Below are positions 1,891-44,873 of a stretch of 64,000 nt of DNA, one piece after another. The notes beneath the pieces were generated by a model, which was given only the letters and a program-made list of their open reading frames with translations, was not told the origin of the DNA and made no database searches. Both the position numbers and the translations under genes were made by a program. Numbering within the stretch: position 1 is the first letter of the stretch; each line of letters begins with the position of its first letter. Origin of the DNA: Methylophaga sp. (lineage in GTDB: Bacteria > Pseudomonadota > Gammaproteobacteria > Nitrosococcales > Methylophagaceae); NCBI GenBank assembly GCA_011053005.1, contig DRHW01000019.1:124001-188000 (forward strand). Direction: 5' to 3'.

Positions 1891-3114
1891 ATGAAAACAT
1901 ATCTCGTTGGCGGCGCTGTCCGCGATAAATTACTTGGGTTAACAATTAAAGATCGCGACTGGGTGGTGGTAGGCAGTAGTCCACAAGAGATGATGGCCGA
2001 AGGATTTGAACCTGTGGGTAAAGATTTCCCAGTATTTCTTCACCCTAAAACTCATGAAGAATATGCATTAGCTCGCACCGAGCGTAAATCAGCACCCGGT
2101 TATAAAGGTTTTATCGTACATGCCGCGCCGAATGTCACATTAGAAGAAGATTTAGCAAGACGAGATCTCACCATTAATGCCATTGCACAAGCTGAAGATG
2201 GCACTTTAATTGACCCATATAATGGTCAACGCGATCTACAAAATAAAATATTACGCCATGTGTCACCTGCATTTGTTGAAGATCCAGTTCGCGTATTACG
2301 CATTGCCCGTTTTGCCGCACGCTTTGACTTTAAGATTGCTGACGAGACTTTAGTGTTAATTCACCAGATGGTCGCGGCAAAAGAACTTGATTCATTAGTA
2401 CCAGAACGGGTCTGGCAAGAGCTAGAAAAGGCACTCGCCACACCACAACCTTCATTATTTTTTATGGCATTACGCAAAGCAGGTGCTTTGGAAAGTTTGT
2501 TCCCCGAAGTTGATCGTTTATTTGGCGTGCCGCAAGTACCTAAATGGCATCCTGAAGTTGATACTGGTGTGCATGTGATGATGGTGATTGATCAAGCAGC
2601 AAAACTGACTGATGATATTACCGTTCGCTTTGCCGCCTTGTGTCATGACTTAGGCAAAGGCACGACACCTGCCGACATTTTGCCGCAGCATAATGGCCAC
2701 GAAGCGCGTAGCATTCAATTAACTCAAGACTTATGCCAACGTATTCGTGTACCTAAAGACATCGAAACTCTCGCAGTAAAAGTAGCGGAGTATCACACCC
2801 ATCTCCATTTATTATTCGAGCTGAAGCCAGCCACTATTTTAGAAGTTATCGAAGTGTTTGATGGCTTTCGCAGACCAGAGCGCTTTGAACAATATCTGCT
2901 GGCTAGCGAAGCAGATTTTCGCGGTAGACCGGGTTATGAGGATCTTCCTTTACCCGCTATTAACGTTTTCAAACAATGTCTTTTAGCCTGCCAAAAAGTG
3001 ACTGCACAGCCGTTCCTTAATGCAGGAAAACAAGGTCCAGCCATAAGTGAAGCTATTCGTAAACAACGTATTAGGCTAATAAAGCAAATTATGATCGAAG
3101 CAAAAACCAATTGA
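1891..3114 (+). CDS. cca: Multifunctional CCA-adding tRNA nucleotidyltransferase
   Basis: The enzyme adds or repairs the 3' CCA end of tRNAs in the cytoplasm using CTP and ATP. I place the start at ATG 1891, giving MKTYLVGGAVRDKLLG (407 aa, E. coli 412). The frame is open further upstream, but that stretch overlaps slt and has no family similarity. Visible signatures are the nucleotidyltransferase GGAVRD and the RDRDW-like KDRDWVVVG, then RRDLTINAIA and the RVLRIARFAARF motif. A C-terminal HD phosphohydrolase domain has LCHDLGKG around residue 252, which is typical of the bacterial bifunctional gammaproteobacterial form. It follows slt by 7 bp. A good promoter for mch starts just after its stop codon. 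Confidence 0.95.
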   Translation: MKTYLVGGAVRDKLLGLTIKDRDWVVVGSSPQEMMAEGFEPVGKDFPVFLHPKTHEEYALARTERKSAPGYKGFIVHAAPNVTLEEDLARRDLTINAIAQAEDGTLIDPYNGQRDLQNKILRHVSPAFVEDPVRVLRIARFAARFDFKIADETLVLIHQMVAAKELDSLVPERVWQELEKALATPQPSLFFMALRKAGALESLFPEVDRLFGVPQVPKWHPEVDTGVHVMMVIDQAAKLTDDITVRFAALCHDLGKGTTPADILPQHNGHEARSIQLTQDLCQRIRVPKDIETLAVKVAEYHTHLHLLFELKPATILEVIEVFDGFRRPERFEQYLLASEADFRGRPGYEDLPLPAINVFKQCLLACQKVTAQPFLNAGKQGPAISEAIRKQRIRLIKQIMIEAKTN

Positions 3115-3128
3115 AAAGTTTGTCTCGC

Positions 3129-3157
3129 ATTACAGTCCGGTACACATCACGTATAAT
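3129..3157 (+). promoter_or_regulatory. Candidate sigma-70 promoter of mch
   Basis: ATTACA (3129-3134) and a perfect TATAAT (3152-3157) are separated by 17 bp in the gap between cca and mch. Transcription would start about 3164, leaving a short leader with an AGGA ribosome-binding site at 3181-3184, eight bases before the mch ATG. This is pattern matching only. Confidence 0.5.
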
Positions 3158-3192
3158 CCATTATCATTATTCACTAATTTAGGATCATCATC

Positions 3193-4176
3193 ATGAGCGG
3201 CAATATATCTGCTAACTGGACCAGCGTTAATGCTGCCAGCCAACCTTTAGTTGAACGTTTAATTGCCGATGCACAAGCATTGCAACTTGAAGTCAGCACA
3301 CTGAGCAATGGCACGCGCATTGTTGATGCTGGCATTAATTGTGTAGGCGGCTTAGAAGCCGGCCGCTTAATTGGTGAAATCTGCATGGGTGGATTAGGTA
3401 CCGTTACTTTAGGTACAAACAGCGGTTTTGAAAACTGGCCATGGTCAGTTAATGTCCACGCTAAAACGCCCGTTTTAAGTTGTTTAGGTAGTCAATATGC
3501 AGGCTGGAGCTTGTCGCACAAAAGCGAAGCGGGCAAATTTTTCGCTCTGGGTTCAGGTCCAGGTCGTGCTTTAGCGGGCAAAGAAGAAGTCTTAAAAGAA
3601 TTTGGCTATAAAGATGAAGCCACATCAACGTGCATTGTTTTAGAAGTCGATTCTTTTCCACCAATTGAAGTCGCTGAAAAAGTCGCTAAAGATTGTGGCA
3701 TTAAACCAGAAGATTTAACGTTTATTCTCACGCCGACATCAAGCCTTGCTGGTGTCATGCAAATTGCCATTCGTGTACTTGAAGTAGCGATGCATAAAGC
3801 GCATACATTACATTTTCCTATGGACAAAATCATTGATGGTTTTGGTGTAACACCTGTTGCGCCACCGGGTGGCGACTTTATGACAGGCATGGGCCGTACT
3901 AATGATGCGATTCTTTACGGCGGCTTTGTTCACTTGTTTGTTAATGCAACTGATGATGAAGCACGTGACTTAGCTGAAAAAATGCCAAGTAATACATCTT
4001 CTGATTATGGCCGCCCATTTGGTGAAATCTTTAAAGCCTATGAATATGACTTTTTCAAGATTGATCCGATGTTGTTCAGCCCTGCAAAAGTAATTGTGAC
4101 TAATGCAAAAACAGGTAAGAGTTTCACTGCCGGCGAGTTAAATTCAGCATTATTAACAACATCGTTTGGTCTATAA
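3193..4176 (+). CDS. mch: Methenyltetrahydromethanopterin cyclohydrolase
   Basis: Mch hydrolyses 5,10-methenyl-H4MPT to formyl-H4MPT in the cytoplasmic H4MPT-linked formaldehyde oxidation route of methylotrophs. The 327-aa length and the sequence fit the family throughout: an NCVGGLEAGR segment near residue 50, GSGPGRALAGKEE, a TPTSSLAGVMQIA segment, and the VAPPGGDFMTGMGRTNDA region. An AGGA ribosome-binding site lies 8 bp before the ATG. It is the first gene of the C1 block and has its own candidate promoter. A terminator-like hairpin separates it from the next gene, so mch may be transcribed at a higher level than the ligase that follows. The order mch-ATP-grasp-CitG-like-fae matches the orf5/orf7/fae arrangement known in other methylotrophs. 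Confidence 0.96.
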   Translation: MSGNISANWTSVNAASQPLVERLIADAQALQLEVSTLSNGTRIVDAGINCVGGLEAGRLIGEICMGGLGTVTLGTNSGFENWPWSVNVHAKTPVLSCLGSQYAGWSLSHKSEAGKFFALGSGPGRALAGKEEVLKEFGYKDEATSTCIVLEVDSFPPIEVAEKVAKDCGIKPEDLTFILTPTSSLAGVMQIAIRVLEVAMHKAHTLHFPMDKIIDGFGVTPVAPPGGDFMTGMGRTNDAILYGGFVHLFVNATDDEARDLAEKMPSNTSSDYGRPFGEIFKAYEYDFFKIDPMLFSPAKVIVTNAKTGKSFTAGELNSALLTTSFGL

Positions 4177-4184
4177 GTAAATAT

Positions 4185-4217
4185 AAAACGGAGTAGCAAA
4201 TGTTGCTCCGTTTTTTT
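4185..4217 (+). terminator. Rho-independent terminator or attenuator after mch
   Basis: AAAACGGA (4185-4192) and GCAA (4196-4199) pair with TTGC (4203-4206) and TCCGTTTT (4207-4214) around an ATG loop, with a three-base bulge at 4193-4195. A run of T follows the hairpin to 4217. It starts 9 bp after the mch stop and ends 13 bp before the next gene, which has no visible promoter of its own, so partial termination is more likely than a full stop. Confidence 0.7.
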
Positions 4218-4230
4218 AGAAAGTCAGCAC

Positions 4231-5148
4231 ATGTCCTCACCTAAAATCGTCATCTTTAACGACACTCACGGCTGGCACAGCGATCAGTTAGTGAAAGCAC
4301 TACAAAACTTAGGCATAACAGCGGTGCTTGCTGATCTTGCTGATTGCATTATCGATCTCGATCATCCTACCGGCATTATTATTCCAGGCTTTGAAAATGA
4401 ATTGCCCGCTGCTGCTATGGTGCGTGGTATTGCGCCAGGAAGTCTCGAACAAATCACGCTAAGAATGGACGTTTTACACACTTTAGCTGAACTCAATGTA
4501 CCCGTTTTTAACCCTGCCATCGCCATCGAACATACGGTTGATAAAGCGCGCACTTCATTACGATTACATTTAGCAGGACTTAATACGCCTAAAACATGGG
4601 CTTGTGAAAATCCTATTTTAGCGCGAAAAGTAGCAGCCGAACAATTTGAAAAACAACAAACCTTAGTGATAAAACCATTATTTGGCTGCCAAGGTAAAGG
4701 TATCGAAAAAATTACCACTTTAGCTGAGTTCGATAAACTCCAAGTGGTTGGTGATGCCTTTTATATGCAGGAATATGTCTTGCCATCCACACCAGATAAA
4801 TGGCAAGACTGGCGGTTGATGGTGGTAGATGGGCAAGTCTGTGCCGCGATGTCTAGACAATCAGATCACTGGATAACTAACTTTGCTCAAGGCGCGAGCT
4901 GCTTTGCGGCAACAGTAACAGCTGAAATGGAACAACTCGCGATTGCAGCCACAAAAGCAGTTCATGCAGATTATGCTGGCGTAGATCTCATCAGAACAGT
5001 TGATGGCAGTTACACCGTATTAGAAGTCAACAGCGTGCCAGCATGGAAAGGTTTGTATCAAGCAACCCATATCGATGTCGCCGCACATCTTGCACGCGCT
5101 CTTTTTAAACGAATAAGCACGGCAATGCCGATAAGTTATGTGACATGA
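4231..5148 (+). CDS. RimK/MptN-type ATP-grasp ligase of the C1 cofactor cluster (Orf5 type)
   Basis: This 305-aa ATP-grasp ligase belongs to the RimK family. In archaea the related MptN adds an alpha-linked glutamate to tetrahydromethanopterin, and methylotroph clusters carry a homologue usually called Orf5 between mch and orf7. The sequence shows the ATP-binding glycine-rich loop LVIKPLFGCQGKGIEKI near residues 148-164 and the metal-binding C-terminal signature GVDLIRTVDGSYTVLEVNS. Its position after mch and its ATGA overlap with the CitG-like gene suggest one transcript. The exact acceptor (pterin carrier or methylofuran polyglutamate tail) cannot be read from sequence. The ATP-grasp assignment is secure and the glutamate ligase role is inferred from context. 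Confidence 0.85.
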   Translation: MSSPKIVIFNDTHGWHSDQLVKALQNLGITAVLADLADCIIDLDHPTGIIIPGFENELPAAAMVRGIAPGSLEQITLRMDVLHTLAELNVPVFNPAIAIEHTVDKARTSLRLHLAGLNTPKTWACENPILARKVAAEQFEKQQTLVIKPLFGCQGKGIEKITTLAEFDKLQVVGDAFYMQEYVLPSTPDKWQDWRLMVVDGQVCAAMSRQSDHWITNFAQGASCFAATVTAEMEQLAIAATKAVHADYAGVDLIRTVDGSYTVLEVNSVPAWKGLYQATHIDVAAHLARALFKRISTAMPISYVT

Positions 5149-6014
5149 CCCAATTATCTACCGAGACAATCACCAACTGTATTATTTGGGCATGTGAGCA
5201 AGAAGTCGCAGCGCCAAAACCAGGCAATGTAAACTGCTACAGCGATGGTCACAATATGGAAGTGCAAGACTTCATCAAAAGTGCCCGCGCTATCGCTCCT
5301 GTCATGGCAAAAAAAGAATTGGCTGTCGGCGAGCTGATATTACAAGGTATTCAAGCTACCCGCACTGTCGTAGATTGCAATACGAACCTTGGGATCGTCT
5401 TATTATTTGCGCCATTATGTCGCGCGATCCATCGATGCGCAGACTTTCAACAACTTCCTGATGAGCTAGAAAAAGTATTACTCAGCCTCACCGTCGATGA
5501 TGCAAAAGCCTGCTATGAAGCCATCCGTTTAGCAGATGCCGGCGGCCTTGGCAGTAGCGAACAGCAAGATATTCACGCAACTCCCACTATGAACTTATTG
5601 CAAGCGATGAAAATTGCTGAGCAACGTGACGCGATCGCTAAGCAATACGTCACTAATTACAATGACATCTTAAATATTGGACTACCAATATTGACATCTT
5701 CGATAAAATCTGGGGAAAGTGTTGAATGGGCCACCGCTTTCGCGTATCTTAAGCTCTTAGTAGCTGTTCCAGACACATTGATTCGTCGAAAACAATCTTT
5801 GGAACACGCCCTAGAAATAAGTGAAGTAGCAGAAAAGATACTAACCAAAGTAAATGAAAACAACATGTTAAGCTCTTTTGAAGCAGAAATAATTATTTGG
5901 GATAACGAATTAAAGAAGAAAGCAATTAATCCGGGAACCACCGCGGATTTAACCGCAGCGACATTATTAGTCTATGCATTCGGACAATCGCTTTCTTCCC
6001 TCCGCATTTCATAA
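5145..6014 (+). CDS. CitG-like protein of the H4MPT cluster (Orf7 type)
   Basis: The 289-aa protein resembles triphosphoribosyl-dephospho-CoA synthases (CitG/MdcB family): it has APKPGNVNCYSDGHNM near the N-terminus, NTNLGIVLLFAPL near residue 85, and DAGGLGSSEQQD. CitG makes a ribosylated CoA-derived prosthetic group for citrate lyase, but no citrate lyase or malonate decarboxylase genes occur here. Members of this branch sit between the ATP-grasp ligase and fae in many methylotrophs. An analogous ribosyl-transfer step in C1 carrier synthesis is plausible but unproven. The start ATG overlaps the stop of the preceding gene by 4 bp (ATGA), indicating translational coupling. Confidence 0.82.
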   Translation: MTQLSTETITNCIIWACEQEVAAPKPGNVNCYSDGHNMEVQDFIKSARAIAPVMAKKELAVGELILQGIQATRTVVDCNTNLGIVLLFAPLCRAIHRCADFQQLPDELEKVLLSLTVDDAKACYEAIRLADAGGLGSSEQQDIHATPTMNLLQAMKIAEQRDAIAKQYVTNYNDILNIGLPILTSSIKSGESVEWATAFAYLKLLVAVPDTLIRRKQSLEHALEISEVAEKILTKVNENNMLSSFEAEIIIWDNELKKKAINPGTTADLTAATLLVYAFGQSLSSLRIS

Positions 6015-6075
6015 CCTGATGAAAAATATTAAATCGAGTTATGAGCAGGTCATACGTTCCTTTAATACGTATAAG

Positions 6076-6097
6076 CTCAACTTAGTGATAAGTCGAG
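6076..6097. promoter_or_regulatory. Imperfect dyad in the fae upstream region
   Basis: CTC-A-ACTTA-GTGA-TAAGT-C-GAG forms a 9-position inverted repeat with one mismatch around a 4-base centre. It lies 49 bp before the fae ATG, and a TAAAAT hexamer follows at 6100-6105. No T run follows, so it is not a standard terminator for the preceding gene. An operator overlapping a promoter or a leader hairpin are both possible. Confidence 0.35.
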
Positions 6098-6145
6098 TGT
6101 AAAATGGGCCTTTTTAACAAATTTTTTCGAACAGGAATATATAAC

Positions 6146-6664
6146 ATGCCAGTTATCGATCGTGTATTAGTAGGTGAATCTTTAGTAATTGAAGATGGTG
6201 ATTTAGACAACGTAGCACATATTGACTTACTTATGGGCCCTCGTGGTTCAGCTGCAGAAGACGCTTTCTGCCGCACTATGACAGACCAAAAAGCAGGTGT
6301 TAACGGCTTACTAGCTGTAGTTGCACCTAACCTTATGGTTAAACCTGCGACAGTTATGTTCAACAAAGTAACTATCAAAAACATGAAACAAGCAGTTCAA
6401 ATGTTTGGCCCAGCTCAACGCGGTGTTGCGATGGCTGTTGCTGAATGTGTTGAAGACGGCACAATTCCTATGGCTGAAGCTGATGATTGTTTCATCTGTG
6501 TTGGTGTTTTCATTTCACCAACTGCAGACAACGATCAAAAAATTCAAGATTGGAACTACCGTGCAACTAAAGAATCAATCAAACGTGCTGTTGCTCGTGA
6601 ACCAAAAGCAGCTGACGTTGTAGCACAATATAAAACTAGCTCGCATCCTTTTGCTGCAAGCTAA
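6146..6664 (+). CDS. fae: Formaldehyde-activating enzyme
   Basis: Fae catalyses condensation of formaldehyde with tetrahydromethanopterin to methylene-H4MPT, the entry step of the cytoplasmic formaldehyde oxidation path. I start it at ATG 6146 ([14 protein letters not shown], 172 aa), preceded by an AGGA-type site, because this matches the usual length of about 170. An in-frame ATG at 6104 would add 14 unrelated residues. Key family features are [12 protein letters not shown] with the conserved His, [34 protein letters not shown] and the C-terminal HPFAAS. All seven arginine codons are CGT or CGC, a bias expected for one of the most abundant proteins of a methylotroph. A strong terminator follows directly, so fae ends its own transcript. 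Confidence 0.98.
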
Positions 6665-6689
6665 GTTTTAAAAAAATCGTTTAATCGAT

Positions 6690-6726
6690 ACGCCGTTTTC
6701 TCGCAAGAGTGAACGGCGTTTTTATT
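6690..6726 (+). terminator. Strong terminator after fae
   Basis: ACGCCGTT (6690-6697) pairs perfectly with AACGGCGT (6712-6719). The internal CTC-GCAA-GAG hairpin has a GNRA-type loop. TTTTATTTT follows. It sits between the convergent fae and HisA-like genes. Confidence 0.88.
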
Positions 6727-7434
6727 TTAAGGACATTTAAGCTTCAACTTTTCCACAGTTTGCTTAGTGATCTTGCCATCATGCAGTGCACTCGCCACTA
6801 AGACCTGTTCAATTCCTCGCGATGCTAAATCTATTAAATCCTGTTCAGACCTCACACCGCCAGCCGCAATAATCTCACTATTTAACGCCTTATTCTGTAA
6901 TGTTGATAACAATTCAAAGTCAGGGCCTGACTGACTTCCAATATGATCAATATTCATCGCAATAATCGTTTCTGCCCATAATATTGGTTGTTGTATAAGC
7001 GGTGGCTCACCTAAAAACTGGCCATGCTGAAAATCTAGTGACAAAATACTTTTTTGTCGTACTTCTGGTTCTGATAACCAAGCAATATCAGACAAGGTCT
7101 CACTACCAATCACAGGTTTAATATTCGAAAAATCGACAAAATATTGCCAATTTTCTAGTGAATGAATACCCGCATCTAACAAAAAAGTAATCTGTGGAAA
7201 CTGTTCACCCAAGCTTTTATACAAGGCTGTATTTTGTTGTTGCTCTAAAATAGCATCTAGATCTGCAATATAAATTGTTGAAAAAGCGTGCCAAGCTAAT
7301 AAATCAGCAATCACCGATAGCGGCTCACAATGAGCGCTTAAAACTGACTGTAATACGGGATATTGTGTGCGTATTCCACCGCGTGCATGTACAACCTTTC
7401 CCCCCAGCACATCGATGACAGGTATAATTTCCAC
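6727..7434 (-). CDS. HisA/HisF-like (beta/alpha)8 protein of the C1 cofactor cluster
   Basis: This 235-aa protein has the phosphate-binding TIM-barrel fold of HisA. PVIDVLGGKVVHA opens with the strand-1 Asp, ILSLDFQHG carries a second central Asp, and AAGGVRSEQDL plus VASALHDG look like the phosphate-binding loops. It is shorter and more divergent than housekeeping HisA and is not beside other his genes. A HisA-like subfamily of this kind co-occurs with H4MPT and methanofuran genes in methylotrophs and archaea; its substrate is not established. The start is GTG at 7434 with a GAGGA-type site 6 bases upstream. It is divergent from the next ATP-grasp gene with only 23 bp between start codons. 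Confidence 0.75.
   Translation of the reverse strand: MEIIPVIDVLGGKVVHARGGIRTQYPVLQSVLSAHCEPLSVIADLLAWHAFSTIYIADLDAILEQQQNTALYKSLGEQFPQITFLLDAGIHSLENWQYFVDFSNIKPVIGSETLSDIAWLSEPEVRQKSILSLDFQHGQFLGEPPLIQQPILWAETIIAMNIDHIGSQSGPDFELLSTLQNKALNSEIIAAGGVRSEQDLIDLASRGIEQVLVASALHDGKITKQTVEKLKLKCP
7423..7428 (+). promoter_or_regulatory. Perfect TATAAT hexamer before the mfnD-like gene
   Basis: TATAAT lies 29 bp before the mfnD-like start, inside the first codons of the divergent HisA-like gene. No convincing -35 box is found 16-18 bp upstream (the sequence there is C-rich). It may be the -10 of the 7458-12678 operon, but support is weak. Confidence 0.3.
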
Positions 7435-7457
7435 CTTAATTCCTCAGACTTTATGTA

Positions 7458-8480
7458 ATGAAAGTATTTGTTTACGAACATATCACCAGTGGTACACTCA
7501 TCAACGAGTCATTGCCTGCAAGTCTTGCCCGTGAAGGCAATGAAATGCTTGCCGCTGTCGTACATGATATGGCGCTATTAACGAATATTGAGTTGAGCAT
7601 TTTACGTGATTTTCGCCTCGGACAATTGTTAGATATTGTTGCTCATCCTCATCACCAATGCTTGATTATTGATAATGATATTTCATTTCACCAGCATTTC
7701 ACCCAATCAATAAAACAAGCTGATGCCGTATTGATTATCGCGCCGGAAACTGACGGATTATTACAAAATCTGCAACAATCAGTATTAAATCAAGGTAAAC
7801 AATTATTGGGTTGCCAACCTATTGCAACTCAGATCTGCACCGATAAAATCGCCTGCTACCAGCAATTAGCATCCAATAATGTACTAACACCACACACGAT
7901 TGCGGGCAGTGATTGGTTGCTCAATACGTTTGATTCATCTTCAGGTTTTGTTGTTAAACCGCGTGATGGTGCAGGATGCCTCGACACTTTATTTTTTGCC
8001 GATAATTCAGGGGTGACGGCTTATTTAAGATCGAGTTATATCAATGTCGAGCAGACTATTGTTCAGCCCTATATTGAAGGTAAACCACTCAGTCTCTCAC
8101 TATTATGTGATGATAAAACGAGTCGTGTACTTGCGATTAATCAACAGCATATCCAGCTTGATGATGGCCAACTTAGTTTCCATGGTTGCAGTGTTAATGG
8201 GGTCGAAGAAGCACAATTTAGCATGACTCAGGCAACTGCAATTGCTCAGCACACACATAGTGCGATTTCCGGTTTGTGGGGATTTATCGGCATTGATCTG
8301 ATCGTCACTGACAATCAGGCTTATGTCGTTGATATTAATCCGCGACTCACCACTTCCTACGTAGCTTTGCATCAATCATTATCACTGAATCCTGCTCAAT
8401 TATTACTGACGATGATGGAACAAGGTTTAGCGGCGTTACCCTCTTTCAGCCAACGACATGCCATCGAGATCATAATATGA
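7458..8480 (+). CDS. mfnD: ATP-grasp ligase, MfnD (tyramine-glutamate ligase)-like
   Basis: This is a 340-aa ATP-grasp enzyme with an N-terminal pre-grasp domain beginning MKVFVYEHITSG, an ATP-binding segment FVVKPRDGAGCLDTLF near residue 165, and the metal-binding signature IGIDLIVTDNQAYVVDINPR near residue 275. In methanogens MfnD joins glutamate to tyramine during methanofuran synthesis, and homologues in methylotrophs occur beside the other mfn-like genes. The neighbouring mfnF-, mfnE- and mfnA-like genes support that reading. It is divergent from the HisA-like gene, has no obvious ribosome-binding site, and overlaps the next start by 4 bp (ATGA). The acceptor could be tyramine, tyrosine or another aminated aromatic. 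Confidence 0.78.
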   Translation: MKVFVYEHITSGTLINESLPASLAREGNEMLAAVVHDMALLTNIELSILRDFRLGQLLDIVAHPHHQCLIIDNDISFHQHFTQSIKQADAVLIIAPETDGLLQNLQQSVLNQGKQLLGCQPIATQICTDKIACYQQLASNNVLTPHTIAGSDWLLNTFDSSSGFVVKPRDGAGCLDTLFFADNSGVTAYLRSSYINVEQTIVQPYIEGKPLSLSLLCDDKTSRVLAINQQHIQLDDGQLSFHGCSVNGVEEAQFSMTQATAIAQHTHSAISGLWGFIGIDLIVTDNQAYVVDINPRLTTSYVALHQSLSLNPAQLLLTMMEQGLAALPSFSQRHAIEIII

Positions 8481-9523
8481 CACAAACACCTTCTTATATC
8501 AGTGGTTGGGACATCGGCGGTGCTCATATAAAAGTGGCGCGTTGTGATCAAAATGGCAACTTACACGACGTTATTCAAGTTGCATGTCCTTTATGGCAAG
8601 GCATAGACCAGCTCGCCACAGCCATTGAGTCCGTATTTGCCCAACTTAATAATCAACAAGATATTGCCGCAATTACGATGACCGGAGAATTAGTTGATAT
8701 TTTCCCCAATCGTGAAGTAGGTGTAGCGGGGATTTTAGCGTGTGTTGCTCAATATATAGATAATGACAAGATCATGGTTTATGGTGCAGAAGCAGGCTGG
8801 TTAAGCCCAAAACAAGCGACAAAACAATGGCAAAATGTCGCATCGCGTAACTGGCAAGCAAGTGCGAGTTTGGTCGCCCAAGTAATTCCTGAAGGCTTAT
8901 TTGTCGATATTGGCAGTACGACTTGCGACATTATTCCACTTGCTCATGGCTTAGCCATTCCGCATGGCGTTGATGATTTTCAACGACAAACAAGTCGTGA
9001 ATTACTTTATACCGGCGCAATAAGAACGCCGTTAATCGCACTAAGTCAACATGCGCCATTTAATGGCAGACTGGTCAGCCTTGCTGCCGAAGTATTTGCG
9101 ACGACAGCTGATTGCTGGTGTTTATTAGACTTACTTGATCCGGCGTCAATTCAAGATAACAGCGCCGATGGTCAACCTTGGCAAGCTGATTTTTGCGCGA
9201 GTCGCATTGCGAGATTACTCGGCACTGATGCAAATCAGGCAAATATGGCGCAATGGCAACAACTTGCTCAATGGTTTGCCGAGCAACAAAGTCATTTAAT
9301 TAGCAATGCAATGTTACAGGTATTATCTGCACACTCGAACTTAGCCGCTGATGCGCCCATTATTGGCGCGGGTGTGGGTCGATTTATCATCGAAGCCTGT
9401 GCACAGCGTCTTAACCGTCCTTATCTCGATTTCAACGAAATACTCTTATACAAACATTCAGCGAGTGCTGATCATGCACCGGCTGTGGCGGTTGCCCTTT
9501 TAGCCCAACAACAGTTACCGTAA
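8477..9523 (+). CDS. mfnF: MfnF-like protein, hydantoinase/acetate-kinase fold, H4MPT-linked C1 pathway
   Basis: The 348-aa protein has the ASKHA-type nucleotide-binding fold: GWDIGGAHIKVARC at the N-terminus and GLFVDIGSTTCDIIPL in the middle, with APIIGAGVGRFI near the C-terminus. This family was long annotated as a probable H4MPT-linked C1 transfer pathway protein. In methanogens MfnF condenses the furan-methyl diphosphate with gamma-glutamyltyramine to build methanofuran. The start overlaps the upstream ligase stop (ATGA), and pabB follows after 9 bp. Function is inferred from family plus context; the fold and family are clear. Confidence 0.82.
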   Translation: MTQTPSYISGWDIGGAHIKVARCDQNGNLHDVIQVACPLWQGIDQLATAIESVFAQLNNQQDIAAITMTGELVDIFPNREVGVAGILACVAQYIDNDKIMVYGAEAGWLSPKQATKQWQNVASRNWQASASLVAQVIPEGLFVDIGSTTCDIIPLAHGLAIPHGVDDFQRQTSRELLYTGAIRTPLIALSQHAPFNGRLVSLAAEVFATTADCWCLLDLLDPASIQDNSADGQPWQADFCASRIARLLGTDANQANMAQWQQLAQWFAEQQSHLISNAMLQVLSAHSNLAADAPIIGAGVGRFIIEACAQRLNRPYLDFNEILLYKHSASADHAPAVAVALLAQQQLP

Positions 9524-9532
9524 AATACACGT

Positions 9533-10930
9533 ATGAATGATATAACCCTCCCGCTTCTTTGTACTGAACTGCCTTATCTCGCAGACAGCGCGCTTTATTT
9601 TGAAGCGATCCGCACAATGCCTTGGCCTGTATTTTTAGATAGCAGCCACTCCGTAAGTTCGAATGACAGCCGTTATGATATTCAAACTGCAGCACCTTTT
9701 ATAACGCTAGTCACGACAGGTGAAAACACGCTAATAAAACATCATAATAAAGATGCCGTATTGTCGAGTGACGATCCTTTTGTCCTTTTACAAAATATCT
9801 TGGGTGAATTTAAACCTCATCAATATGCCGACTTACCTTTTTGTGGCGGTGCATTAGGTTATTTTGCTTATGATTTGGGTCGTCGCATTGAAGATCTTCC
9901 GTTGCAAACACTAGATGCTGAACATATGCCCGAAATGGTAATTGGTATTTACGATTGGGCTATTGTGACGGATCATCAATTACAGCGTTGCTGGCTGGCA
10001 AGTTACCGGTTGAATGCTGAAACACAAGTGCAATGGGATGATCTTGTCAGCAAATTGACCTCAATAACACCGCCCAAAAATCCAGATACCTTTCATGTTA
10101 GTGGCGAATTACGTTGTAATTTAAATCAACAAGACTACCAACTCGCTTTTAACAAGATTCAAGATTATATTCATGAAGGTGATTGTTATCAGGTCAATCT
10201 CGCTAAACGATTTGAAATTAATGCCGAAGGTGATCCTTGGTTTGCCTATCAATTATTACGAAAACAAAACCCCGCGCCGTTTTCTAGTTATTTTGCAACA
10301 CCTTATGCAACTGTACTCAGTTCTTCACCAGAAAGACTATTAAAAGTAAGTCAACAGCAGGTTGAAACCAAGCCAATCAAAGGCACGCGTCCACGTGATT
10401 TGAACAACCCTGCTCGAGATAAACTCCTCTCCGACGAATTACAAACAAGTCTCAAAGATCGTGCTGAAAATCTCATGATCGTTGATTTATTACGCAATGA
10501 CTTGGGCAAAGTCTGCATACCAGGTTCGATTAAAGTACCAAAACCTTTTGCCCTAGAATCTTTTGCAACGGTTCATCATTTGGTTAGTACAATTACCGGC
10601 ACGTTGGCAGATCAACACAATGCTGTTTCATTATTACGAGCTTGCTTTCCCGGTGGTTCAATCACTGGCGCACCTAAGTTACGTGCGATGGAAATCATAG
10701 AAGAACTTGAACCTCATCGTCGTGGTTTATATTGCGGTAGCATTGCCTACATTGGTTTTGATGGAAAAATGGATAGCAACATCACTATTCGCACCTTAAT
10801 ATACAGCGATAATCGTCTACGTTTTTGGGCGGGTGGCGGTATTGTCGCCGACTCGACTGCTGATGCTGAATACCAAGAAGTGCATGACAAAGCCGCCGCG
10901 ATATTACGGCTACTTGAACAACTCAAGTGA
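9533..10930 (+). CDS. pabB: Aminodeoxychorismate synthase component I
   Basis: PabB converts chorismate and ammonia to 4-amino-4-deoxychorismate, the precursor of p-aminobenzoate, which is needed for folate and also as the aryl part of tetrahydromethanopterin. The 465-aa protein has the chorismate-binding C-terminal domain with YQVNLAKRF, SSSPERLLKV, DLLRNDLGK and GGSITGAPK. Its PIKGTRPR motif, with Lys rather than the Ala of anthranilate synthase, marks it as PabB and not TrpE. It is embedded in the mfn-like operon, 9 bp after mfnF and overlapping mfnE by 4 bp (GTGA). This implies that pABA supply is coupled to C1 carrier synthesis. The amidotransferase and lyase partners are not nearby. Confidence 0.93.
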   Translation: MNDITLPLLCTELPYLADSALYFEAIRTMPWPVFLDSSHSVSSNDSRYDIQTAAPFITLVTTGENTLIKHHNKDAVLSSDDPFVLLQNILGEFKPHQYADLPFCGGALGYFAYDLGRRIEDLPLQTLDAEHMPEMVIGIYDWAIVTDHQLQRCWLASYRLNAETQVQWDDLVSKLTSITPPKNPDTFHVSGELRCNLNQQDYQLAFNKIQDYIHEGDCYQVNLAKRFEINAEGDPWFAYQLLRKQNPAPFSSYFATPYATVLSSSPERLLKVSQQQVETKPIKGTRPRDLNNPARDKLLSDELQTSLKDRAENLMIVDLLRNDLGKVCIPGSIKVPKPFALESFATVHHLVSTITGTLADQHNAVSLLRACFPGGSITGAPKLRAMEIIEELEPHRRGLYCGSIAYIGFDGKMDSNITIRTLIYSDNRLRFWAGGGIVADSTADAEYQEVHDKAAAILRLLEQLK

Positions 10931-11514
10931 TCGTCGTTAAGCTCGGTGGTAGTCTCTATAACACCGCAGAATTAAAGCTTTGGCTACAAACACTCGCGGA
11001 CATCTCGCTGACAACCCCCATAGTCATTGTCCCCGGTGGCGGCCCGTTCGCCGACCAAGTGCGTGAAGCTCAAATCTTTCACCATTTCAACGATGCAACA
11101 GCCCATCACATGGCGCTGATAGCGATGAAACAGTTTGGATTGCTAATGACGGGTCTTGAAGCTCAATGCCAGCCATTTGATGCATACAAGCCCGAACAGG
11201 CACTATCAGTTTGGCTACCTGATGATACCTTGCTTTCAGAAGCAGAACTTAGCCAAAGCTGGGACTTGACCTCTGATAGTCTTGCCTTATGGTTGGCATC
11301 GAAACTGAACGCCGAACAGTTATTTTTGGTGAAACATGTTCAGATGAATAGTACTTCAATCAAACAGCTGGCGAACAACCAAGTTATTGATCGTTGTTTT
11401 GCTGATTTATTCAGGGCGTATCCGCTTCCAACTCAAATCATTCATTATCAATCCCATGCTGATTTTGCCAATAGCATTGCCAATCCCCACAATCAAACAA
11501 GCCTGAGCCTGTAA
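10927..11514 (+). CDS. mfnE: MfnE-like amino-acid-kinase-fold kinase
   Basis: This small (195 aa) amino-acid-kinase-family protein shows the phosphate-binding MIVVKLGGSLYN, VIVPGGGPFADQVR, and the nucleotide-binding WDLTSDSLALWLASKL segment. In methanogens MfnE phosphorylates aminomethylfuran-methyl phosphate to the diphosphate that MfnF uses. Its position two genes after mfnF and directly before the mfnA-like gene supports the same role. It starts with GTG overlapping the pabB stop (GTGA). The C-terminal part is weakly conserved, and the protein is short for the superfamily, as expected of this branch. Confidence 0.8.
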   Translation: MIVVKLGGSLYNTAELKLWLQTLADISLTTPIVIVPGGGPFADQVREAQIFHHFNDATAHHMALIAMKQFGLLMTGLEAQCQPFDAYKPEQALSVWLPDDTLLSEAELSQSWDLTSDSLALWLASKLNAEQLFLVKHVQMNSTSIKQLANNQVIDRCFADLFRAYPLPTQIIHYQSHADFANSIANPHNQTSLSL

Positions 11515-11520
11515 AGCGCC

Positions 11521-12678
11521 ATGACTACATTTTCTGACATCATCGACCTGTTGCAGCATCAACTCCGTGATTTAGCCGAGGATGATTCGTCTGCAAAGCT
11601 TATCCAACAATTGATAACAGAAGGTCAATTACACCATAAAAGCACGTGGGCTGGACATATGACGCCCGCCGTCGATTCTCCCGCCTTGTTAGGTCAAGCG
11701 TTAGCGGGAATACACAACGGTAATTTATTATCGCCTGAACTCTATCCACAGTTAGTCGCTATTGAACGACAATTATTAGATTGGTTTTGTCAGCTGTTCC
11801 AGCAACCGTTTGCACACTTCACTCACGGTAGTAGTTATGGCAATCTTGATGCCTTATGGCAAGCAAGAGAACAGGCTAAAAACTCCTCCAATATTGTGTA
11901 TGGCTCACAAGCAGCTCATTATTCTATTAGTAAAGCCTGTCGTGTTTTAGGTTTAAATTTTCAGCCAATTCCAACCAACAACTTAGGTCAAATAGACGTA
12001 AATGCATTACGTACTGCCTGCCAACATATTGCGCCGATAGCGATTGTAGCCACAGCAGGAACGACGTCTTGTGGCGCAATTGATCCAATTCAACAATGTC
12101 TAGCTATCGCCAAAGAATTTAATAGCTGGTGTCATATTGATGCTGCATGGGGAGGGGCATTAATGTTGTCATCTACTCATCAACATCATCTTGCCGGTAT
12201 TGAGCAAGCTGATTCGGTGTGTATTGATCCCCATAAAGCATTAGGCCAGCCCAAACCTTGTAGCCTGTTACTCTATAAACAGCCTTTAGCCAGCAGTTCA
12301 GATCTTGATGTCGATTATTTAACACAAGCACCGAAGCAAACTATCGGCGGCTCTTATGGCGGTGAATTATTCTTGCCGCTTTGGTGTAGTTTAATCATCA
12401 ATGGCAAACAATCATTCTCAGATCAAATTGACCAGCGACTTATGCAAGCTGAACGCTTTGCATGCGCACTAAAACGACATACCAACTGGTGGTTATCACC
12501 TTCTGCTACGGGAATAGTCTGTTTTAAACCTCCTACACATATTAATCTCACTGACTTAATAAATCTTGGATTATTATCTACGGCAAAAGTAAATGGCCAA
12601 ACGGTTTACCGCGTGGTATTTGCCAATGCTACCAGCCAAGCTGAACCATTACTTGCTGCGCTTAAAATATATTTTTAA
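11521..12678 (+). CDS. mfnA: PLP-dependent group II decarboxylase, MfnA-like (tyrosine/aspartate decarboxylase)
   Basis: This 385-aa pyridoxal-phosphate enzyme is of the glutamate/tyrosine decarboxylase fold. The cofactor lysine lies in SVCIDPHKALGQPKP (K239). Also seen are ATAGTTSCGAIDPI, HIDAAWGGALM with the PLP-contact Asp, and FTHGSSYGNLDALW. In methanogens MfnA makes tyramine for methanofuran, and homologues can also decarboxylate aspartate to beta-alanine. Here it ends an operon of mfnD-, mfnF- and mfnE-like genes, which favours a role in furan-carrier synthesis. It starts 6 bp after the kinase gene. The convergent damX-like gene ends 8 bp downstream without a visible terminator between them. 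Confidence 0.78.
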   Translation: MTTFSDIIDLLQHQLRDLAEDDSSAKLIQQLITEGQLHHKSTWAGHMTPAVDSPALLGQALAGIHNGNLLSPELYPQLVAIERQLLDWFCQLFQQPFAHFTHGSSYGNLDALWQAREQAKNSSNIVYGSQAAHYSISKACRVLGLNFQPIPTNNLGQIDVNALRTACQHIAPIAIVATAGTTSCGAIDPIQQCLAIAKEFNSWCHIDAAWGGALMLSSTHQHHLAGIEQADSVCIDPHKALGQPKPCSLLLYKQPLASSSDLDVDYLTQAPKQTIGGSYGGELFLPLWCSLIINGKQSFSDQIDQRLMQAERFACALKRHTNWWLSPSATGIVCFKPPTHINLTDLINLGLLSTAKVNGQTVYRVVFANATSQAEPLLAALKIYF

Positions 12679-12686
12679 GCAGTGTT

Positions 12687-14258
12687 TTAATTAGATTTTT
12701 TGTTGATCTGTTGCTGCACACTATCAAAGCGACGCAACCATGAAGGCAAGGTATTAATCGGCGCTGGCCAAGCACTACTTGCATCCAATGCCGCTTGTTT
12801 ATTGTCATAAACGCCATAAATTAACGCATACCAAACCCGACCATTGCGCATGCTTTCAAATTCAGCAACGTCACCTACCAAAGCATATTTATCTATAAAC
12901 TCGACCACTTCCTGCTTCTCCCAAGACCCCATAAGTTGAAAGGTATAATCGCTTGAGCTTTGTTTTAAAATCCAATTTTTTTGATGTACCGTTGCTGGTA
13001 GTGCTTTGTTTAATACTGGCTTAGGAGTTTTTACCGAATTCGGTTCAGGCAATATGACAGGTTCTGGATCTGATAACGGTTTTGAAATAATTGTCTTATT
13101 TTCTACTGGAGCTATAGCTTGATCTTGTGTTGAAGGCGTTGGCGTTGGCGTTGGCGTTGGCAAAATTATTTCATTGTCGACTGAGGTAATGGGCTGTTCA
13201 TTTGGCTTGGCAACATCTGCCGTCAACTCAGAAACTAAAGACTTAAGCTCATCTCGCTCGGCTTGTGCAGAAGATGTTATTTTATCTTCACCAATAACCA
13301 CTTTCGCCAATGCTTCATCTTCATTGCTAAAAGGTTTTTCAATGGTTAAATCATCTACATCTTTTGGCGAGAGGAGACTATTAATCGAGTCTTGAAACAC
13401 CAATAGCAGAATAAGCAGAATAACTAATAAGCCTAAACCGGACCAGCGAAGTAAAGGCATAAGTCGTGCTGTATTGATTTTTATGGGACTACTCAGGCTT
13501 GTTTTCATGCCTAATAAATGTTGATGCGCCCACTGATTAATTAACGCTGGAATACCTGCCGACTGGCGATAACATTGCTTTAAATCTTTTGGGCCAAAAA
13601 CGAGATCACCATGATAACCAACAGCTTGTAATCGATAGTCTAAATATAAAGAAACTTCTTGTTCTGATAATGCAGGTAGATCAATTTGTTGTGATCGTCC
13701 AGAAATATTAGCTAGGGCGGGCAACTCTTGTTTGCAGGTAAAGACGGCCTGCAATAAAAAGCCATTATCTGTCTGCCATGATAAACAATCAATTAATACG
13801 GTTAGTGACTCTTCGGAAAGTAAATCAACATCATCCATCAGTAACAGCGGTTTAATGTTTAACTGACGAAGGCCGCCTAATCTTTCTTTGAGAAGAACAA
13901 GATGATCATTGCTAAATTGAACATCATTATCATCAACACCAAAAGCAGTTAAACACTGCATGACAATGTCCATCGGGGTTACAGCGTCTTGGCTATTAAT
14001 ACGACAAATTCTTAGATCATCGGTCTTATTACGTTCTAATTGAGTGACAAGTACGCTTTTTCCTAAGCCTTGTCCTGCGACTAACAAGCCCACTTTGTCA
14101 GTGGCACGAATCAAATGCAATAACAAATTAAAACGCTGTTCTATTTGCTCGCTTTTGAAAAATATTGTGGGTTCAACGGCTTTATTAAAAGGTGCCGATT
14201 GCAATGCTAAACGTGCAATATAATTAGGTTCGACTAAAGAAGAAGCAAATTCACTCAT
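12687..14258 (-). CDS. damX: DamX-like protein: AAA ATPase, transmembrane segment, SPOR domain
   Basis: The 523-aa protein combines an N-terminal ExeA-type AAA ATPase, one membrane helix and a periplasmic SPOR domain that binds denuded septal peptidoglycan. Visible are a Walker A motif VAGQGLGKSVLV near residue 62, a Walker B motif LLLMDDVDLL near 138, a hydrophobic helix near 270-290, a proline-rich linker with a TP repeat near 372-382, and a C-terminal SPOR-like region from about 430. It follows aroK and aroB, the usual gammaproteobacterial order. I choose the ATG at 14258, 3 bp after the aroB stop, over the TTG at 14261. Its role in cell division is inferred from DamX. Confidence 0.85.
   Translation of the reverse strand: MSEFASSLVEPNYIARLALQSAPFNKAVEPTIFFKSEQIEQRFNLLLHLIRATDKVGLLVAGQGLGKSVLVTQLERNKTDDLRICRINSQDAVTPMDIVMQCLTAFGVDDNDVQFSNDHLVLLKERLGGLRQLNIKPLLLMDDVDLLSEESLTVLIDCLSWQTDNGFLLQAVFTCKQELPALANISGRSQQIDLPALSEQEVSLYLDYRLQAVGYHGDLVFGPKDLKQCYRQSAGIPALINQWAHQHLLGMKTSLSSPIKINTARLMPLLRWSGLGLLVILLILLLVFQDSINSLLSPKDVDDLTIEKPFSNEDEALAKVVIGEDKITSSAQAERDELKSLVSELTADVAKPNEQPITSVDNEIILPTPTPTPTPSTQDQAIAPVENKTIISKPLSDPEPVILPEPNSVKTPKPVLNKALPATVHQKNWILKQSSSDYTFQLMGSWEKQEVVEFIDKYALVGDVAEFESMRNGRVWYALIYGVYDNKQAALDASSAWPAPINTLPSWLRRFDSVQQQINKKSN
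13135..13161. repeat. GGCGTT hexamer repeat in the damX-like linker
   Basis: Four full copies of GGCGTT plus GGC run head to tail. On the coding strand they specify alternating Pro and Thr in the linker before the SPOR domain. A six-base unit keeps the frame, so length changes by slippage would only shorten or lengthen the linker. Confidence 0.9.
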
Positions 14259-14261
14259 CAA

Positions 14262-43039: not shown

Positions 43040-43966
43040 TCAAGGCGATAATGAGTATTTTTGCATTCGATACAATAAGGTATCACGGCTTATCCCTAGT
43101 AACCTTGCTGCTCGTGAACGATTACCTGCGGCCAGTTCCAAAGCCTGCTCAATCAAGTCTAACTCTACGCGTGCTAAATCAATTCCAGTTGGCGGCAACG
43201 TAAATACATGATGACTAGCGGTGACTTCTGGCAACATTTCTGGCGGCAAATCTTCTTCCACCAGCACTTTTCCCGGATAGAGTAACGCCATGCGTTGGCA
43301 GAAGTTTTTTAACTCGCGAACATTACCGGGCCAAGCATACGTCAGCAGACAATGTTCAATGGTTTTTGAATAACGCACGACCGCATTATCACCAGAAAAT
43401 TCGCGGGTATAATGGCGTAATAACAAGGTAATATCATCACGACACTCTCTTAATACTGGCATTTCAATCGGCACCACTTGCAGGCGATAAAATAGATCTG
43501 CTCTAAAGCGACCTGCGGTCACTTCTTGTTGTAAATTTGCGCTTGTCGCCGCCACAATCCGTACATCAGCAAGGTGCAATTTATGGCTTCCTTGCAACTG
43601 ACACTCGCCTGCTTCCAAAAACCGCAAAACTTTCGCTTGAACCGATAAAGGTAACGCATCGACTTCATCAAAAAATATGGTGCTACCTTCTGCGGCCAAT
43701 AAACGACCACGATGCTCTATTTCGCCCAGTGCATTAGCACGACCAAATAAATCTATTTCTATACCATCGCTCGGTAACGCTGCACAATTAATAACAACTA
43801 ATGGTTTATCTCGTCGTCGGCTTTCAGAATGCAAGGCTTGGGCAAGCAGCTCTTTACCAGTGCCCGTTTCACCATAAATTAAAACGCTGGCTTCACTGGC
43901 CGCAATCATCGGGATAGTGCGTAGTAAATGGGTAATTTGTGGCGATTGACCTAAGATTTTTTTCAT
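43040..43966 (-). CDS. AAA+ bacterial enhancer-binding-like regulator without GAFTGA loop
   Basis: This compact 308-aa protein is made only of an AAA+ domain and a C-terminal Fis-type DNA-binding helix-turn-helix (NRSRAARLLGISRDTLLYRM). Walker A is YGETGTGKELLA, Walker B is STIFFDEVDALP, and the arginine finger region is FRADLFYRL. Compared with sigma-54 activators, the segment after DLFG reads RANALGEIEHRGR: the GAFTGA loop that contacts sigma-54 is lost and three residues are missing. There is no N-terminal sensor domain. It lies 14 bp after the His-tailed membrane protein gene. It may act as a repressor, with sigma-70, or as a partner of another activator. Confidence 0.85.
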   Translation of the reverse strand: MKKILGQSPQITHLLRTIPMIAASEASVLIYGETGTGKELLAQALHSESRRRDKPLVVINCAALPSDGIEIDLFGRANALGEIEHRGRLLAAEGSTIFFDEVDALPLSVQAKVLRFLEAGECQLQGSHKLHLADVRIVAATSANLQQEVTAGRFRADLFYRLQVVPIEMPVLRECRDDITLLLRHYTREFSGDNAVVRYSKTIEHCLLTYAWPGNVRELKNFCQRMALLYPGKVLVEEDLPPEMLPEVTASHHVFTLPPTGIDLARVELDLIEQALELAAGNRSRAARLLGISRDTLLYRMQKYSLSP

Positions 43967-43980
43967 ATCTATGTCCGCCC

Positions 43981-44718
43981 TTACATTGAATGATGTTGAT
44001 GGCTACTGTGATCGGTTTGTTCGCCGTTGTCAGCACCATGATCCATAGTCATTGGCCAAAATGTCGTTGCCAATGCCATCGCGATAATCAATACGCCTGC
44101 CACTTGCCTTAAATGTTTGACTCTTGCCATCGCCGATAATATGCCAGTGAATAAACCGGCTCCCATTACCGCAGGCAAAGTACCTGCACCAAACGCTAAC
44201 ATCACTAACGATGCTTTGACAGGGTCGCCCGCTGTTGCAGCAACCGCTAATGCTGAATACACCAAACCACAGGGTAACCAGCCCCAAATAACGCCTAAAA
44301 ACAAGGCTTGCGAACGTGTCCTTACGGGTAATAATTTTTGTCCTATCGGTTGTAACCAACGCCAAATAGGTGCACCCATTCTTTCCATTCGAGCAAACTT
44401 AGGAAACCAACCCGCCAAATATAAGCCCATCGCAATCATCACCACCAACGAGAGGTATTGCAATACTTGATGGCCATTAATATTAACTAACGGTGAACTT
44501 AATAAGCCAACAATCGCCCCTGCCGAGCCATAACTAAATAATCGACCCAGATTATAGTTAAGGACATAAGGAAACATTTTAGACTGATTTTCACGTATTT
44601 CCTTAGGCAAACTTAAGGTCAAGGCACCAATCACCGAACCACACATGGCAATACAATGTACCGTGCTAAATAAGCCTAATAAAAAAGCAGCAATATATGA
44701 GCTGGTTATCGCTTCCAT
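43981..44718 (-). CDS. UreH/TauE-like (sulfite-exporter TauE/SafE family) membrane protein with His-rich tail
   Basis: The 245-aa inner-membrane protein has about six helices, a HCIAMCG motif in the first helix and a WLPCGLVY motif later. These conserved cysteines are typical of the DsbD-like/UreH-type heavy-metal family often found beside copper or cytochrome oxidase genes. The C-terminal tail DHSSHQHHSM is His- and Met-rich, like copper-binding tails. I start at ATG 44718 with an AAGG site upstream. It is divergent from the OprC-like receptor. A role in copper transport is inferred. Confidence 0.78.
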   Translation of the reverse strand: MEAITSSYIAAFLLGLFSTVHCIAMCGSVIGALTLSLPKEIRENQSKMFPYVLNYNLGRLFSYGSAGAIVGLLSSPLVNINGHQVLQYLSLVVMIAMGLYLAGWFPKFARMERMGAPIWRWLQPIGQKLLPVRTRSQALFLGVIWGWLPCGLVYSALAVAATAGDPVKASLVMLAFGAGTLPAVMGAGLFTGILSAMARVKHLRQVAGVLIIAMALATTFWPMTMDHGADNGEQTDHSSHQHHSM

Positions 44719-44873
44719 CAATTAAAACCTTCATCAAATAATAAAACTAGAGCAGATTAACATGTCATAAATAAACAATATTGCGTTATTTCACACAGTG
44801 ATTCTTGATAAAACACATTTGTTAAGTTTAAGTGGTCAGTAAAATAGTAGGGTTATTTTATGGAACTAAAATC

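Follow-up and report, generated by a model that had tools for sequence, protein, structure and literature searches.

A Methylophagaceae version of the bacterial tetrahydromethanopterin/methylofuran gene island with a family-specific decarboxylase and a likely promoter inside orf17

The DNA analysed here, a 64-kb stretch (the window) of a 198,925-bp contig in a 2.89-Mb draft genome of Methylophaga sp., carries between cca (end at 3114) and damX (12687-14261, minus strand) ten intact open reading frames (ORFs) at 3193-12678, in the order mch, myfB (orf5), orf7, fae, orf17 (minus strand), mfnD-like, mfnF (orf9), pabB, mfnE (orf21) and a gene for a pyridoxal phosphate (PLP) decarboxylase. This block is the Methylophagaceae version of a shared bacterial island for tetrahydromethanopterin (H4MPT) and methylofuran, with one gene added. 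The kind of island is known; new are a family-specific decarboxylase and, likely, a promoter embedded in codons, and what is said below on function is prediction. As an overall reading we consider it probable that this island version is arranged as two operons, the second starting from the embedded promoter and ending with a tyrosine decarboxylase that leads to a tyramine-type methylofuran. Gene content and order, conservation, codon constraint and distribution were computed here; the roles of MyfA and MyfB and the need for Orf17 are taken from print and from other species.

The block as a version of a shared island

The ten genes and the family models on which their names rest are:
3193-4176, plus: mch, methenyl-H4MPT cyclohydrolase (TIGR03120, 412 bits, above cut-off)
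4231-5148, plus: myfB (orf5), RimK/MptN-like ATP-grasp protein, methylofuran polyglutamate ligase (TIGR00768, 162 bits, above cut-off)
5145-6014, plus: orf7, CitG-like protein (PF01874, 237 bits), overlapping myfB by 4 bp
6104-6664, plus: fae, formaldehyde-activating enzyme (TIGR03126, 214.7 bits, above cut-off)
6727-7434, minus: orf17, HisA/HisF-related triosephosphate isomerase (TIM) barrel (TIGR00734, 109 bits, below cut-off)
7458-8480, plus: mfnD-like (orf1) ATP-grasp gene, putative tyramine/tyrosine-glutamate ligase (NF040722, 112 bits, below cut-off)
8477-9523, plus: mfnF (orf9), coupling of the furan and phenol halves (TIGR03123, 322 bits, above cut-off)
9533-10930, plus: pabB, aminodeoxychorismate synthase component I (TIGR00553, 368 bits, above cut-off)
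10927-11514, plus: mfnE (orf21), furan phosphate kinase (NF040622, E-value 2.6e-22, below cut-off; AA_kinase; position conserved)
11521-12678, plus: group II PLP decarboxylase, proposed tyrosine decarboxylase (PF00282, 143 bits, cut-off 27)

Curated NCBIfam cut-offs were passed by five genes, namely mch, myfB (as RimK family), fae, mfnF (TIGR03123) and pabB, and the models for MfnD, MfnE, MfnF, MptN, CitG, hisAF_rel and MfnA were matched below their own cut-offs. The MfnD model NF040722, with a cut-off of 400 bits, is not reached by the mfnD-like gene yet is its best family match, and the name is limited here to MfnD-like/orf1. Likewise mfnF scored 168 bits with the archaeal MfnF model, under that model's cut-off, and myfB also matched NF040720 (MptN) with an E-value of 1.7e-60, below that cut-off; the role assigned to it is that of Orf5/MyfB in PMC8141765. 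The orf7 product probably serves the H4MPT side chain. The pabB gene is the sole PabB found in the genome, as of the two places found with PF00425 the second is TrpE, at 578 bits and above cut-off.

An earlier sequence-only reading of this DNA had given these genes names that were essentially right (matches to MCH, RimK/MptN-like, CitG, Fae, HisA/HisF-related, MfnD-like, one_C_unchar_1/MfnF, PabB, MfnE/AA_kinase and PF00282), and the block does join formaldehyde oxidation on H4MPT with methylofuran assembly as it proposed. The nine junctions measure, in order, 54, -4, 89, 62 (convergent), 23 (divergent), -4, 9, -4 and 6 bp, with the 4-bp overlaps at myfB/orf7, mfnD/mfnF and pabB/mfnE; the description of most genes as overlapped or a few bases apart therefore fits five of nine junctions (overlapping or at most 9 bp) but not those of 54, 89, 62 and 23 bp. 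Nor is pabB the last gene, the real order being mfnF-pabB-mfnE-decarboxylase, and position 3129, where the block had been made to start, holds a promoter-like site and no gene. The HisA-like gene of the supposedly near-continuous block is present but lies on the minus strand, where it converges on fae and diverges from mfnD, the start codons of orf17 and mfnD being 23 bp apart.

The comparison of gene order with relatives, suggested by the same reading, showed that the order recurs in 40 Methylophagaceae loci. These are 40 of the 52 loci of a named-genome scan, the other 12 showing a distant decarboxylase only. All ten genes are present in 29 of the 40, the remaining 11 being cut by contig or fetch ends, and mfnE adjoins the decarboxylase gene in 40 of 40; the recurrence of this pair and of the ten-gene set is more than chance. 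Another set of 23 relative loci comes from contigs already among the 40, shows the same order where covered and adds nothing. ORFs truncated by contig ends were not counted, and the sequence sets A3 and A4 comprised 34 of 36 and 35 of 37 available sequences, without the near-duplicates L099 and L102. The nearest named records, each with 79% identity in the decarboxylase, are a Methylophaga metagenome-assembled genome (MAG) and a MAG labelled Pseudomonadota. The block had also been called an insertion between cca and damX. Recent insertion or transfer was rejected on three counts: the place is the same in almost all relatives whose sequence extends into the flank, the base composition is like that of the flanks, and a plasmid search (near mode) gave no match to the block. 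On the other side stand three flank exceptions, since a damX match is absent in L093, L113 and L114 and a cca match upstream of mch is absent in L114, and the draft genome apparently contains some foreign contigs (L068).

Outside the genus, a class-wide search of 369 genomes gave MfnF matches in 49; of these, three weak ones (E about 1e-4) and three of Methylophaga were set aside, leaving 43 MfnF-positive genomes, and 40 of these provided one mfnF locus each (G316, G331 and G380 were left out). The common layout there is mptG-mtdB-myfA-mch-myfB-orf7-fae-<orf17-mfnD-mfnF-pabB-mfnE, to which some loci add fhc upstream or mfnB-orf20-DHPS-like-flavoprotein downstream; several are partial, and L193 shows mfnF alone. 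Near mfnF were found pabB in 37, mfnD in 35, mfnE in 34 and orf17 in 30 of the 40 loci, with orf17 on the opposite strand in 30 of 30. A decarboxylase gene within 6 kb of mfnF occurs in one of the 40, and that locus is also of Methylophagaceae. The block shares with this island mch, orf5, orf7, fae, orf17 and mfnF in conserved order, and the island partners mptG, mtdB, myfA, mfnB and fhcABCD are present in the same genome, where they occupy, with orf20, the DHPS-like gene and the flavoprotein gene, three other places. The mptG, mfnB, fhcD and MfnD-related myfA genes were named by family models; mtdB, which no NCBIfam model matched, and fhcA, fhcB and fhcC were named by eye from position and sequence. 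The myfA gene (orfY), at G000:C19:79 kb, scores 30 bits with the MfnD model, and weak MfnD similarity, ATP-grasp membership and the mptG-mtdB neighbourhood, which mark MyfA, are found together in this gene (L066:7110-8255) and not in the mfnD-like gene of the block.

The same families (mch, orf5/myfB, orf7, fae, orf17, orf9/mfnF, orf21/mfnE, orf22/mfnB, pabB, orfY/myfA, orf1/mfnD and fhc) make up the 'archaeal-like' cluster of Methylorubrum extorquens and other proteobacteria (PMC8141765). In comparison with that cluster, the Methylophaga genes are split over four places, an extra PLP decarboxylase closes operon 2, and mfnD, with which orf1 has been identified, is present, whereas it is described as not recognisable in Methylobacterium (PMC5020050). 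Methylosinus trichosporium OB3b, with mch-orf5-orf7-fae1-fae1-2-orf17, shows the same island start (mch-orf5-orf7-fae-orf17); its genes lie in five islands, and orfY, dmrA and pabB are reported as not found there (PMC3615186). Of the archaeal methanofuran pathway MfnA-F, homologs of MfnB, D, E and F are encoded in the Methylophaga genome; in contrast to that pathway, the Methylophaga decarboxylase has closer matches than archaeal MfnA, MyfA and MyfB would build the tail, and no gene was assigned as the aminotransferase MfnC. Inside the islands, 39 loci hold 253 ORFs without assignment, of which the eight groups shared by at least three loci were inspected; none of these groups reads as an aminotransferase, and the search was confined to the islands.

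The decarboxylase that closes the block

The decarboxylase gene closes the operon in Methylophagaceae only and is a new feature of the island. It was found in 25 of 25 genomes of the genus, in G013 as a 51-residue end at a contig edge. Among the 43 other MfnF-positive genomes its subfamily occurs in one, again of Methylophagaceae; 14 have generic relatives only (best E 1.7e-38) and 28 have none. The sequence-only name 'mfnA-like' proved apt in part, as the protein is a group II PLP decarboxylase, with D207, H238 and K239 of the PLP-lysine region invariant in 35 sequences, but it is not closest to archaeal MfnA by model and PDB scores. We prefer to read it as a tyrosine decarboxylase of separate recruitment, equivalent to mfnA in role but not its orthologue. 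We regard tyrosine as its probable substrate, a reading that rests on context because sequence and fold do not point to archaeal MfnA: the gene is the last of a methylofuran-core operon, the same operon includes mfnD, the archaeal counterpart of which takes tyramine, and a 122-kb contig carries panD, so that beta-alanine does not need the decarboxylase of the block. That same panD makes it unlikely that the last gene is there as a PanP/aspartate decarboxylase. A tyramine-type methylofuran would be predicted for Methylophagaceae.

Several observations weigh against tyrosine. The test for archaeal-type MfnA (TIGR03812) gave 109.5 bits against a cut-off of 299, and models for histidine decarboxylase, PanP and diaminobutyrate decarboxylase scored higher, at 135-141 bits. 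Among PDB sequence matches, 8zpi, 4rit and the R. gnavus tryptophan decarboxylase 4obu rank over MfnA 3f9t. In a structural model with a predicted local distance difference test (pLDDT) of 87.1, the nearest folds are 4rj0/4riz (Z 41), with DfoJ, 4obv and GAD close, and archaeal MfnA appears in the structure list at Z 36, against 41 for the top matches. The substrate cannot be read from the sequence of the enzyme. In addition, the methylofuran core is tyrosine or tyramine depending on the strain, and of six tyramine producers three were reported to have an MfnA homolog, in one case next to mxa, and three to have none (PMC8141765); the presence or absence of one gene is for this reason a weak predictor of the core. 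A decarboxylase for aspartate, diaminobutyrate, histidine or lysine that merely shares the operon, in an organism whose methylofuran is of the tyrosine type as in Methylomicrobium album, would agree with the best-scoring models, with 8zpi and 4rit, and with fold neighbours that include the DfoJ lysine decarboxylase and GAD. This alternative is given a minor but real share of our belief, clearly behind tyrosine, since the nearest folds also include the R. gnavus tryptophan decarboxylase, mfnE is the neighbour of the gene in every family locus and panD is present.

In the available text of PMC8141765, in which Methylophaga is not among the strains named, two gaps are the source of tyramine in strains without an MfnA homolog and the reaction of Orf17. 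For the first, the locus offers a candidate, a decarboxylase of a different PF00282 subgroup that is fixed in a single family and linked to this operon.

Two probable operons and a likely promoter inside orf17

The sequence-only reading had taken the block as one coupled unit. The genes are indeed contiguous, but the block looks like two operons on the plus strand, each with its own putative promoter, with a terminator-like hairpin and the divergent orf17 between them. The junctions at 8477, 9533, 10927 and 11521 all fall within the second operon. The signals concerned are:
3129-3157, plus: promoter-like site of the first operon, ATTACA-17-TATAAT (promoter scan, which over the whole region gave no excess of sites, 20 against 22.5 expected)
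6690-6726, plus: terminator-like hairpin with T tail after fae (fold of -21.2 kcal/mol for the 62-bp gap)
7423-7428, plus: TATAAT within codons 3-4 of orf17, the candidate -10 box for the mfnD operon (conservation, codon counts)

The plus strand of 3000-12900 contains TATAAT only twice, once upstream of mch (3152) and once at 7423, where its end is 30 bases short of the mfnD start. Of 29 readable regions upstream of mch, 19 have a perfect TATAAT, five TATACT and five neither. The hairpin after fae was found in 25 of 34 family loci, in comparison with 20 of 170 dinucleotide shuffles and one of 37 mfnF|pabB junctions; below -15 kcal/mol these counts are 25 of 34, one of 170 and none of 37. The orf17 codons Ile3-Ile4 read ATT-ATA in 36 of 36 loci, a combination that accounts for 43 of 843 Ile-Ile pairs in the remaining genes of block and flanks; the nearby Ile7 varies (ATT in 28, ATC in seven, ATA in one), unlike the constant Ile3 and Ile4. 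Of the 58 orf17 positions that are conserved, those under the strongest codon constraint are Ile4, Val6, Gly11 and Val14, and mean synonymous constraint is 0.96 bits in the first 15 codons, the highest of ten genes with data, against 0.21 in the rest. Codon constraint was run on 12 genes; in fae and mfnA no position at the start could be scored, and in orf7 a single one. These patterns suggest that the mfnD operon likely has a promoter with its -10 box inside the first codons of orf17, which would make it a tangible example of synonymous codons held in place by a promoter.

Other results speak against an embedded promoter or weaken its support. Of a sigma-70 promoter for mfnD, the -10 hexamer TATAAT is in place, but the promoter scan listed no -35 hexamer 16-18 bp before it; an activator-dependent promoter would fit the missing -35. 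Outside the genus the box is not kept, as TATAAT was found in two of 27 loci, one of these of Methylophagaceae (three of 30 loci without the motif were dropped from this count). The 36 loci are related and not independent observations, other gene starts are constrained as well, at 0.17 to 0.64 bits (mch 0.64, mfnD 0.49, aroB 0.44), and single-codon maxima above that of Ile4 (1.94 bits) occur in orf7 (2.73), fae (2.52) and mfnF (2.0). Finally, nine of the 34 loci have no terminator-like hairpin after fae, and a simple scanner did not list the one in the window.

A single transcript running from mch through fae, antisense through orf17 and on to the decarboxylase gene, with the invariant ATT-ATA reflecting translation of orf17, would account for the absent -35 consensus, for the nine loci without a hairpin and for the mild constraint at other gene starts. 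AT-rich codons near gene starts are common, and in the genus the mfnD start lies 10-32 bp from the orf17 start. We consider a single transcript unlikely: it is weakened by the shuffle control, in which strong hairpins are nearly absent, and it explains neither why Ile7, nearly as near to the start, varies nor why plus-strand TATAAT stands only at the two operon heads.

Orf17 and the proposed pathway

In M. extorquens orf17 is required for methylofuran but not for methenyl-dH4MPT, the deletion mutant having no methylofuran and being complemented, and its reaction is given as unknown (PMC8141765). The claim that several members of the block have no proven reaction thus narrows, most roles being in print in the same source, to the reaction of Orf17 and the substrate of the decarboxylase. 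The distribution of Orf17 tracks MfnF: at E below 1e-40 it was found in 39 of 43 MfnF-positive and in none of 20 MfnF-negative genomes (best there 1.4e-13), the latter being the first listed and not a random draw. One of the 39, G125, has an in-frame TGA. For comparison, MfnB was found in 41 of the 43 and in one of the 20. The MfnF-positive genomes without Orf17 are G057, G160, G203 and G229, of which G229 is 64% complete and has an Orf17 fragment at a contig edge (L183). G057 (L161) and G203, of one family, keep mfnF and mfnB without an Orf17 above HisA background and provide a natural test of the need for Orf17.

By model score and motifs Orf17 does not qualify as a HisA, scoring 70 bits with TIGR00007 against a cut-off of 229, and the genome has its own separate HisA. 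In an alignment with the latter, two aspartates (D8 and D134) are kept, which serve as acid and base in HisA, whereas GGGIR is replaced by LDAGI, the GTxA-type motif (GT(K)A) by GSET and a HisA Thr by Met160; Orf17 also has an invariant E112. The fold is shared, the Orf17 model (pLDDT 94.8) being nearest to PriA/HisA phosphoribosyl isomerases, with template-modelling scores by query length of 0.69-0.82 among the first 24 matches listed and, in the top ones, Z about 25 and a root-mean-square deviation of 2.2-2.4 over 222-224 residues. In 52 Orf17 sequences D8, V15, R22, Y25, Y55, A57, D58, D87, E112, S132, D134, G166, G192, G193 and D199 are identical. Orf17 may be an isomerase-like enzyme whose substrate is a precursor with a single phosphate. 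The alternative that Orf17 is a vestigial HisA paralogue, or one with a structural role, and has no catalytic part in making methylofuran would agree with G057 and G203 (93% and 90% complete drafts), the first of which has no orf17 between fae and mfnD, but is very improbable given the identity of D8, D134, R22, Y25, D58, D87 and E112 in all 52 sequences and the complemented M. extorquens deletion (PMC8141765).

A joint hypothesis, which we offer tentatively and would not yet favour, is that Orf17 is a new HisA-type isomerase of the methylofuran core, with the D8/D134 pair and one phosphate clamp kept and the second clamp lost for D87 and E112, that its first codons are the promoter of the divergent operon, and that this operon recruited a tyrosine decarboxylase from outside the MfnA subgroup. 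If true, this arrangement would suit an Orf17 substrate with a phosphate on one side and, opposite to it, an amine or polar group, e.g. a precursor of the aminomethylfuran phosphate. The locus thereby offers a residue-level hypothesis for Orf17.

In the proposed scheme, operon 1 (mch-myfB-orf7-fae) would provide two H4MPT enzymes, the methylofuran polyglutamate ligase and the probable H4MPT side-chain gene, and operon 2 (mfnD-mfnF-pabB-mfnE-decarboxylase), started by the putative promoter encoded in the first codons of the oppositely read orf17, would provide the core of methylofuran as well as the p-aminobenzoate that goes into H4MPT and folate. Tyrosine would be converted to tyramine by the decarboxylase, the lineage-specific last gene product, and tyramine to Glu-tyramine by MfnD, after which MfnF would couple Glu-tyramine to the furan diphosphate, the furan half coming from MfnB, an aminotransferase and MfnE. 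The second glutamate (Glu2) would be added by MyfA, encoded elsewhere, and the polyglutamate tail then by MyfB, consistent with the part that Orf5 (MyfB) and OrfY (MyfA) take in tail building (PMC8141765).

Some minor observations concern the draft and its neighbourhood. A second, diverged pilQ-aroK-aroB-damX-decarboxylase end lies on a 7-kb contig of this draft (G000:C23, L068); this second decarboxylase end was set aside as probably foreign, the contig also carrying the diverged damX, aroB, aroK and pilQ. The 4.6-kb contig G000:C38 (L069), whose origin is unclear, has a second panD, and both contigs suggest that the draft contains some sequence of a related organism. Within the window, 43043-43966 (minus strand) encodes a sigma-54 activator-like protein of 308 amino acids, whose matches start at the AAA part of the models, next to a 246-amino-acid ORF (43984-44721) with no NCBIfam match at E 1e-10. 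In relatives, the mch/myfB junction of L114, which has no upstream cca match, holds an extra ORF of 175 amino acids (L114:2088-2615), and two others have inserts of 5-6 kb there (L043:12073-17721 and L045:1403-5950). Both inserts contain a DUF2357-PDDEXK_7 gene beside an NTPase-like gene (with a MrcB_N domain in L045; without a Pfam match but similar by eye in L043); the L043 insert also has a C5 DNA methyltransferase, and that of L045 a PIN-domain gene. The junction looks like a defence-gene hotspot inside a one-carbon (C1) operon.

The eight ORF groups shared among the outside islands are of diguanylate-cyclase type, two of ribonucleotide reductase, molybdopterin-dinucleotide-binding-like, a regulator, a methyltransferase and two with a 6-pyruvoyl-tetrahydropterin synthase (PTPS) domain, the last named by domain match and the other six by reading the sequences. 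In another family, L207 (G270:C1:about 74-76 kb) shows a generic PF00282 decarboxylase gene followed by a folP-like gene beyond the end of the C1 island. One PTPS group is a protein of about 410 amino acids with the domain at its C-terminus, encoded between fae and orf17 (L188:6456-7685, where the domain was confirmed, and L163, L181, L190, L195 and L197), and the other a separate 170-amino-acid PTPS-type protein in four genomes (domain confirmed in L197); both possibly take part in pterin synthesis for H4MPT.

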